64,000 nt of DNA from Sulfurimonas sp. (GTDB lineage: Bacteria; Campylobacterota; Campylobacteria; Campylobacterales; Sulfurimonadaceae), in the NCBI GenBank assembly GCA_003978465.1, contig QNZS01000039.1, forward strand, positions 1 to 64,000. Direction: 5' to 3'. Both the position numbers and the translations under genes were made by a program. A model generated the notes under the pieces. It had not been told where the DNA came from. It made no database searches and was given only the letters and a program-made list of their open reading frames with translations. Shown here piece by piece: positions 1-39,994 of this stretch. Numbering within the stretch: the first letter of the stretch is position 1; every line of letters begins with the position of its first letter.

Positions 1-2
1 CT

Positions 3-113
3 GGTGTGACTAAGACTATAAAAGAGAGTGGTAAAGTTTTTGCAGGATTTCCTTTTATGGATCATAGAGCATGGCTTAAAATTCAGGGTAAATTAGCTAG
101 ACTTATTAAATAA
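3..113 (+). CDS. lpxD: UDP-3-O-acylglucosamine N-acyltransferase, C-terminal fragment
   Basis: This is the last 36 codons of a gene that begins before the window; the stop is TAA at 111-113. The tail contains SGKVFAGFPFMDHRAWLKI, which resembles the C-terminus of LpxD. LpxD is the cytoplasmic hexapeptide-repeat acyltransferase that adds the second acyl chain in lipid A synthesis. The proline-and-HRxW tail is the basis of the call; the left-handed beta-helix itself lies outside the window. It is followed after 18 nt by a small ORF on the same strand, probably in the same transcript. Confidence is limited by the short fragment. Confidence 0.65.
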   Translation, partial: GVTKTIKESGKVFAGFPFMDHRAWLKIQGKLARLIK

Positions 114-37871: not shown

Positions 37872-38489
37872 TTATACTTTTATGCTTTCCCAGAAGAAGT
37901 CTACATGCTTTTCAAAGTGTGTAGATAATGAGTTAGTAGATAAGTCATCAAAGTGCATTAGGGTGATTTGCAGTCTTATGTAGAATAGGGTGGATAAAAA
38001 CTCATAAGAGACCATCATAGGATCGCCAGAGCGTACAAGAGAGTTCTGCATCATTATAAATAAGCCCTCCGAGAGCACTTTAATGTTTTTTTCATGGAAC
38101 TCTGCTTGAAACTGCACTCTAAGCTCTCTGTTTTGCATTAGCTCTATCATCAGTAATCTAAACATATTTTCATTCATCTTATCAAAAGTCAGCATCTTAT
38201 GTTGTAGTGCAAACTTTTGTAAAAATGGCTTTCCTTTTGTGGCTAATTCCTTTATCTCATCAGATGAAAGAGAGAAGGGTGAAGAGAAAATACCCTTTGC
38301 TACTTCAAGAAATATCTCCTCTTTGTTTTTATAGTGATTATAGATAGCACTCTCCCTTATTCCCACTTCTGAGGCTATTTTTCTCACACTTGTGCCCTTG
38401 TATCCCAACTGAGAGAATAGAGTAGTTGATACTTTGAGTATTTTCTCTTTAGTTCCGCTGCGTTTAGTAGGTCTCGTATCTGTAGGCAT
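37872..38489 (-). CDS. TetR-family transcriptional regulator
   Basis: The 205-residue regulator has the TetR helix-turn-helix at residues 15-60 (KILKVSTTLFSQLGYKGTS, then VRKIASEVGIRESAIYNHYK). An all-helical ligand/dimer domain of about 140 residues follows with no family-specific motif that I know. Four operator-like sites TGAACA-N2-TGTTMA, spaced 31-32 nt apart, lie between it and rnpB. A minus-strand TATAAT (38540-38535) is bracketed by two of them, so autorepression is likely. The signal and target genes are unknown. No efflux pump or enzyme gene lies beside it. Confidence 0.9.
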   Translation of the reverse strand: MPTDTRPTKRSGTKEKILKVSTTLFSQLGYKGTSVRKIASEVGIRESAIYNHYKNKEEIFLEVAKGIFSSPFSLSSDEIKELATKGKPFLQKFALQHKMLTFDKMNENMFRLLMIELMQNRELRVQFQAEFHEKNIKVLSEGLFIMMQNSLVRSGDPMMVSYEFLSTLFYIRLQITLMHFDDLSTNSLSTHFEKHVDFFWESIKV

Positions 38490-38510: not shown

Positions 38511-38524
38511 TGAACACTTGTTAA
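38511..38524 (-). promoter_or_regulatory. TetR operator-like site 1
   Basis: TGAACA-CT-TGTTAA, one mismatch from a perfect TGAACA-N2-TGTTCA palindrome. It lies just downstream of the minus-strand -10 box, near the expected start point of the TetR gene transcript. Confidence 0.65.
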
Positions 38525-38542
38525 CATTAAACTAATTATATA

Positions 38543-38556
38543 TGAACACTTGTTAA
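38543..38556 (-). promoter_or_regulatory. TetR operator-like site 2
   Basis: TGAACA-CT-TGTTAA, identical to site 1, 32 nt away. It lies in the -10/-35 spacer of the minus-strand promoter whose TATAAT is at 38540-38535. Confidence 0.65.
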
Positions 38557-38573
38557 TATCAGCTTATACAAAA

Positions 38574-38587
38574 TGAACAAGTGTTCA
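38574..38587 (+). promoter_or_regulatory. TetR operator-like site 3 (perfect palindrome)
   Basis: TGAACA-AG-TGTTCA is a perfect 6-2-6 inverted repeat, 31 nt from site 2. It lies just upstream of the plus-strand TATAAT at 38591-38596. Confidence 0.7.
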
Positions 38588-38590
38588 TAT

Positions 38591-38596
38591 TATAAT
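38591..38596 (+). promoter_or_regulatory. plus-strand -10 box between operator sites 3 and 4
   Basis: TATAAT directed toward rnpB, bracketed by operator-like sites 3 and 4. A start about 38603 would give an rnpB precursor with about 60 extra 5' bases. Confidence 0.5.
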
Positions 38597-38605
38597 TTTA
38601 ATGAG

Positions 38606-38619
38606 TTAACACTTGTTCA
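38606..38619 (+). promoter_or_regulatory. TetR operator-like site 4
   Basis: TTAACA-CT-TGTTCA, 32 nt from site 3 and at the expected start point of the plus-strand promoter. It also lies at about -58 to -45 of the rnpB-proximal TACAAT box (38653-38658). Confidence 0.65.
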
Positions 38620-38663
38620 TATGTATAAAAGCTGTATAAAGGTTTTTTTTAGTACAATCTCAT

Positions 38664-38986
38664 AGGTACAAAGATAGTTACTTGAAGTCAAATTCAAGAG
38701 GAAAGTCCGAGCTGCTGTAGGACGGTGTTCCATTTAACGAATGGCCGTAGTAATACGAGGGAAAGTGCAACAGAGATTAGACTTCTATTCTAAGAATAGT
38801 AAAGGTGAAAAGGTGCGTGTAAGAGACCACCAGTTTCTATAGCAATATAGAGAGCTTGTAAACCCAACATGGCAGCAAGAAACAGATGGTTAGCGTCCTA
38901 CAATGCTATTGTTTCGCTAGAGGCACAAAGTAATGTGTGCAGTAGATTAATAACTATTACTACAAAACTCGGCTTATTTGTACCTT
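38664..38986 (+). ncRNA. rnpB: RNase P RNA (bacterial type A)
   Basis: This is the catalytic RNA of RNase P, which removes tRNA 5' leaders. Conserved blocks are clear: GAGGAAAGTCCGAGCT (CR-I), ACAGAGATTAGAC, GGTGAAAAGGTGCGTGTAAG then AGACCACCAG (CR-II/III region), and TACTACAAAACTCGGCTTA at the 3' part (CR-V). The ends are set by pairing of AGGTACAAA (38664-) with TTTGTACCT (-38985), helix P1. A TACAAT box at 38653-38658 could be its own promoter. Confidence 0.95.
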
Positions 38987-39106
38987 ATATAAATGTCACT
39001 AACTATAATAGGCAAAGCCAACTATAGTTGCAGGGACTCAAAGTCGCTACAATCCCCTAAAGCTATAAAAACATTAGTTTTTAAGATATCAATAGAGGTG
39101 CTTCAA

Positions 39107-39715: not shown

Positions 39716-39781
39716 AAGTATTTTTCAATAGAATTTACATTATGTTAACCAATACTATAAAATAAGGATATAATAATTAAT

Positions 39782-39994
39782 ATGAGTAAAAAAGAACAAC
39801 TAATTATAGATATACAACAGTTATTAAATAGCCATGTAAATATCTCTACTACAACAATCAACCCTGAGCTACTTTCATTTATGGATGAGAAAACACTTAT
39901 CAGTATTATAGGCTCTCTCTTAGATCAAAAAGAGAGACATCTTGAGGCTGATGGTGAATGGCTTGAGCAATTTAAGAAAGATACAAATAATTAA
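39782..39994 (+). CDS. small conserved hypothetical protein (70 aa)
   Basis: The 70-residue acidic, helical product (SKKEQLIIDIQQLLNSH, then LLSFMDEKTLISIIGSLLD and QKERHLEADGEWLEQF) has no membrane segment or cysteine. I recognise no characterised family. The ATG is preceded by AAGGATATAATAATTAAT, where AAGGA is a plausible but distant ribosome binding site. It stands alone between decayed sequence and tRNA-Glu. Confidence 0.6.
   Translation: MSKKEQLIIDIQQLLNSHVNISTTTINPELLSFMDEKTLISIIGSLLDQKERHLEADGEWLEQFKKDTNN

Follow-up and report, generated by a model that had tools for sequence, protein, structure and literature searches.

A phased array of four predicted TetR operators accompanies dif at the chromosome terminus of Sulfurimonas and other Campylobacterales

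RESULTS

Genes and sites at the locus

The window, by which we mean the whole stretch of 64,000 nucleotides that was analysed, belongs to a Sulfurimonas genome whose nearest named relative is Sulfurimonas sp. UBA2011 (TetR 98% identical). At the locus of interest a TetR-family gene on the minus strand faces away from rnpB, and rnpB is followed by dif and by a small open reading frame (Table 1). Between the two genes lie four palindromic sites with centres at 38517.5, 38549.5, 38580.5 and 38612.5, giving spacings of 32, 31 and 32 bp; these are exactly the sites and the spacing given by a sequence-only reading of this DNA. All four match the pattern TGAACANNTGTTMA with 0 mismatches (plus strand for sites 1 to 3, minus strand for site 4), and the 64-kb window holds no exact match beyond them. 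A strict site occurred in 0 of 2000 first-order Markov stretches of 154 bp, and the four-operator array is far beyond chance.

Table 1. Features of the tetR-dif region, in coordinates of the window
Feature	Position	Strand	Remarks
TetR-family gene (205 aa)	37872..38489	-	Pfam TetR_N PF00440
Operator 1	38511..38524	+	TGAACACTTGTTAA; in tetR leader
tetR -10 box TATAAT	38535..38540	-	Abuts operator 2
Operator 2	38543..38556	+	TGAACACTTGTTAA; between candidate -35 and -10 of tetR
CTTA (TAAG on minus strand), candidate tetR -35	38563..38566	-	Conserved
Operator 3	38574..38587	+	TGAACAAGTGTTCA
Plus-strand TATAAT	38591..38596	+	Not conserved, probably chance
Operator 4	38606..38619	-	TGAACAAGTGTTAA on minus strand
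rnpB core promoter -10 box TACAAT	38653..38658	+	Conserved, also without array
rnpB, RNase P RNA class A	38663..38990	+	Rfam RF00010, 215 bits; in this lineage separates array from dif
dif, chromosome dimer resolution site	39723..39750	+	TTTCAATAGAATTTACATTATGTTAACC; identical to published 28-bp core of Sulfurimonas denitrificans
70-aa ORF	39782..39994	+	Begins 32 bp past dif; relatives conserve it beside dif

The protein carries a TetR_N helix-turn-helix at its N terminus (PF00440, 50.4 bits against a cut-off of 24). Its AlphaFold2 model (pLDDT 86) consists of ten helices in the all-helical TetR fold, and the best Foldseek matches of the model were TetR proteins (E value, 2.9e-07), the closest folds being generic TetR regulators only. 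Orthologs are single copy and were found in 22 of the 86 Campylobacterales genera sampled; the majority of these genera have none.

The tetR and rnpB promoters

Both TATAAT boxes noted in the sequence-only reading exist, one on each strand, and their conservation differs sharply. The minus-strand box abutting site 2 is exact in 46 of 59 Sulfurimonas relatives and is present in 57 of the 59 when near variants are included, and a conserved CTTA lies on the opposite side of site 2 from it in these relatives. Given this arrangement of a -10 box against site 2 and a candidate -35 element beyond it, the suggestion that the TetR protein represses its own gene, through predicted sites 1 and 2, is plausible. 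Autoregulation is usual among TetR proteins.

The plus-strand TATAAT between sites 3 and 4, by contrast, recurs in only 2 of the 59 relatives, so that the extra, operator-controlled rnpB promoter proposed from it is probably a chance match; it is already missing in the closest relative (TetR 98% identical). The idea fared no better from the side of rnpB. In six genomes in which rnpB lies away from an array its own TACAAT promoter is retained, and the array is also found beside neighbours other than rnpB. By these signs rnpB is not the target of the array, and we rejected its control as the main function. At one of the six loci (L193), which has no adjacent tetR, a single palindrome, AGAACAGTTGTTCA, lies over the rnpB -35 region.

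The array across Campylobacterales

The intact chain of four sites is present in 59 of 61 upstream regions of Sulfurimonas tetR genes, with successive spacings of 32, 31 to 32, and 31 to 33 bp, and the same kind of array is found at TetR orthologs down to ~40% identity in other families of the order. The number of sites is four at 93 of 115 loci. What varies between lineages is the spacing: 22/22/22 bp in part of family f18; 32 to 33 bp in f1, f4, and part of f18; and 42 to 43 bp in f6. Among neighbouring pairs of sites, 15 are spaced at 21 to 22 bp, 258 at 31 to 33 bp, 37 at 42 to 43 bp, and 3 at 63 bp, with nothing between; the 63-bp spacing corresponds to a missing site, and four longer values are stray matches. 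The differences between lineages are whole helical turns only, which fits the binding of TetR dimers to a single face of the helix. At one locus (L091) a fifth operator stands 22 bp past the fourth, and the last site is again ~52 bp from the rnpB 5' end.

A search for further copies of the motif, as proposed in the sequence-only reading, showed that the array occurs essentially once per Sulfurimonas genome. The genome-wide site calls rest on pattern searches. Of 120 Sulfurimonas genomes, 90 gave the array with a pattern of two phased sites, whose reversed control had nearly no matches; such a pair occurs about once per genome, and no second array was found elsewhere in them. Strict sites outside the array (listed in 15 genomes, with many of them read in context) lie nearly all inside reading frames, for example, in the YEQLL codons of a D-hydroxyacid dehydrogenase-like gene and in recJ. 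With a looser pattern, matches did not exceed those of the reversed control in G009 (38 versus 42) or G011 (60 versus 62); in G129 the counts were 61 versus 45. With strict outside sites mostly in reading frames and looser sites without excess in G009 and G011, we rejected a hidden regulon. One intergenic site, TGAACATATGTTCA at position 1501 of L045 (G028), lies just upstream of a small protein gene (MKIVLAVDTDKK...) and may belong to another regulator.

Linkage of the array to dif

The dif site of the window falls between annotated open reading frames and agrees without a mismatch with the consensus of S. denitrificans and Sulfurovum across the XerC arm, the 6-bp centre, and the XerD arm. 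It lies 1124 bp from the centre of operator 4, with rnpB between. In G011 and G238, dif is unique in the 400 kb around the array.

Among the 87 loci with at least 1.9 kb of upstream sequence, dif or its counterpart difH lies no more than 3 kb from the array in 69, and wherever whole loci were scanned it was on the array side. The orientation relative to tetR is constant for 64 of 65 dif and 17 of 18 difH sites. Where the two have nothing between them, the distance from the centre of the last operator to that of difH is 63 to 68 bp (11 of the 18 difH loci), and the last operator is 63 to 65 bp from a classical dif (three loci); further distances of 93 to 105 bp include loci without a detectable outer site. 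Overall, the array lies between 63 bp and 2.6 kb from dif (331 bp to 2.6 kb in loci other than the compact ones), and rnpB intervenes in 43 loci. In the examined stretch of the remaining 18 of the 87 loci no intact dif was found. Two of these (L099 at position 2340 and L318 at position 1212) contain a dif with one arm altered, possibly the remnant of an element integrated at dif.

Elsewhere the neighbours of the array include xerH, murA, mutS, a DUF808-like membrane protein, small lipoproteins, and a 68-aa protein, all named from their translations and not from database matches. Neighbouring genes thus change while tetR, array, and dif remain together: the constant partner of tetR and its array is dif. 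By this comparison, the array is older than its rnpB neighbourhood. The sequence-only reading had suggested that an original divergent target, an efflux or enzyme gene, was lost and that rnpB came to occupy its place, and that the tetR-rnpB interval be compared in relatives. The part of this idea in which rnpB is a later neighbour fits what we found; an efflux or enzyme gene as the constant partner was not found, and we discarded such a target since the neighbours vary between loci and none is constant. A hidden RNA gene, sought in the loci without rnpB, was likewise not found, and a tRNA-processing theme, which had rnpB in one lineage and rnz close to xerH in another, was dropped after dif was found. 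At L194 (G129) and L098, where the TetR ortholog (72 to 73% identical) lies away from rnpB and dif, there is no operator upstream of it.

Position at the terminus

In all 31 complete genomes with a known dnaA, which cover families f1, f4, f6, and f18, the TetR ortholog lies at 0.454 to 0.5 of the genome from dnaA. The GC-skew switch (maximum) and the array are 12 kb apart in G011 and 8 kb apart in G238, and within the window the GC skew turns near 48 to 50 kb. Carnoy and Roten published dif positions for S. denitrificans, Sulfurovum NBC37-1, and Nitratiruptor SB155-2 (PMC2731167). The dif or difH sites that we found next to the array in G083 (2,201,561 bp), G276 (2,562,277 bp), and G177 (1,877,931 bp) are at these published positions; we took the three genomes to be those three organisms, in that order, partly on the basis of this very agreement.

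DISCUSSION

In the current analysis, we found that a TetR-family gene and a phased array of four palindromic sites are held next to dif at the terminus. Chromosomal dif is generally thought to need only the Xer recombinases and FtsK and no accessory sequences. We give an even chance to the reading that the array is a binding platform for the TetR protein and an accessory element of dif for terminus or dimer-resolution handling, with operators 1 and 2 also serving autorepression. Four TetR dimers would bind, presumably cooperatively, to one face of the helix and so form a phased complex next to dif, and through operators 1 and 2 the protein could repress its own gene as well. Such a complex would most likely help to handle the terminus at division, for instance if it assists or gates the Xer reaction, or if it tethers dif or marks it. 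In its broader form, for which we would claim slightly less than an even chance, the TetR-fold protein and its array would be conserved across much of Campylobacterales as a dedicated partner of dif, working with XerCD-dif as well as with XerH-difH, and would represent either a chromosomal counterpart of the accessory complexes of plasmid Xer sites or a terminus anchor.

The range of this proposal has bounds. Campylobacter, Helicobacter, and Arcobacter species use difH/XerH (PMC2731167); such genera, together with the majority of sampled genera that have no TetR ortholog, indicate that Xer recombination does not in general require the element. Moreover, with distances from array to dif of up to 2.6 kb, a rigid complex cannot be the rule. 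The Sulfurimonas genomes do not count as mutually independent, and common descent connects many of the loci; independent evidence is strongest in the recurrence across four families, two dif systems, and different neighbours.

The main rival is plain autorepression with neutral linkage, in which the array controls only tetR, a conserved gene order at the terminus keeps tetR by dif, and the real targets have other or weaker sites. Linkage of array and dif could indeed be neutral synteny in a slowly rearranging terminus, and the -10 box set against operator 2 in nearly all relatives, the fact that the array follows tetR beside many different neighbours, and the usual autoregulation of TetR proteins all speak for it. 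However, four phased sites are more than autorepression requires, and the concerted changes of spacing by whole turns, like the distance of 63 to 68 bp to dif in both dif systems, are left unexplained. The linkage also outlasts the turnover of neighbours, the tetR gene of G129, relocated from dif, has no array, and no regulon sites were detected by the pattern search in Sulfurimonas or by the looser pattern in G009 and G011. We regard this rival as rather unlikely, though much the most serious of those considered.

A replication fork barrier, in which forks would be halted or paused at the bound TetR dimers and so come together near dif, in the manner of Tus-Ter or RTP-Ter, would suit an array that lies at the GC-skew switch and opposite dnaA and whose protein, like RTP, is encoded beside its own sites. 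The sites are, however, near-palindromic and gathered in one array per genome, with no polar trap seen to flank the terminus, and we think this improbable. More doubtful again is that the TetR protein regulates xerH or other genes adjacent to dif and that the link was kept where XerCD replaced XerH. In families f4 and f18 the array does stand between tetR and difH-xerH, but the xerC and xerD genes are reported to be far from dif in Sulfurimonas and Sulfurovum (PMC2731167) while the array is still with dif, and a second array was not found elsewhere in Sulfurimonas genomes. We would attach equally little credence to the earlier view that operators 3 and 4 control an rnpB promoter. It draws on the divergent position of rnpB in most Sulfurimonas genomes, where operator 4 is mostly ~53 bp upstream of the rnpB 5' end, and it is opposed by the rarity of the plus-strand TATAAT, by an rnpB promoter that stays intact without the array, and by arrays found without rnpB.

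The proposed role as a dif accessory element has partial parallels. At the plasmid Xer sites cer and psi, ~180 bp of protein-bound accessory DNA lies beside the Xer core (PMC5357621). The array, at ~80 to 150 bp and 63 to 68 bp from dif in compact loci, resembles the PepA-ArgR and PepA-ArcA complexes of these sites in layout; unlike them, it concerns a chromosomal dif and a TetR protein, not plasmid sites with PepA and ArgR hexamers, and its distance from dif is not fixed in every lineage. RefZ with its RBM sites (Bacillus) and SlmA with its SBS sites (E. coli) are TetR-family proteins whose sites mark chromosome position (PMC6657595). The window protein matches both weakly, scoring 43.7 bits for RefZ and 27.5 bits for SlmA, below the NCBIfam equivalog cut-offs of 180 and 120 bits; the RBMs, however, are fixed relative to oriC and SlmA sites avoid ter, whereas here there is one array at dif. 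MatP and matS, which link the terminus to the divisome, likewise mark the terminus in a sequence-specific manner. matS sites, however, are scattered over ter and MatP has a different fold, in contrast to the single phased array described here. With RTP-Ter and Tus-Ter the locus shares a protein gene beside its own sites at the terminus; those systems have other folds and polar sites, whereas near-palindromic sites in one array, and not polar flanking sites, were found here. Finally, in the difSL-XerS and difH-XerH modules a gene accompanies dif, a linkage described for difH (PMC2731167), whereas tetR and its array keep to dif even in genomes where no recombinase gene is linked to it. Judged by title and abstract, no paper was found that describes a TetR protein at dif or xerH.

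A protein and its array that stay by dif through an exchange of the recombination system and of all neighbours would indicate that terminus control in Campylobacterota has a layer not recognised so far. At a practical level, a misleading candidate for rnpB regulation is removed, and the array offers a sequence signature for locating dif in draft genomes. Six drafts of 93 to 99% stated completeness (G018, G020, G062, G076, G089, and G126) gave neither an RNase P RNA match nor a tetR ortholog; the joint absence of the two points to an assembly gap at the locus, probably at the dif region. Homologues of the 70-aa open reading frame downstream of dif (MSKKEQLIIDIQQLLNSH...) also lie near dif in more than 40 related loci, including some in other genera (L123 and L128).
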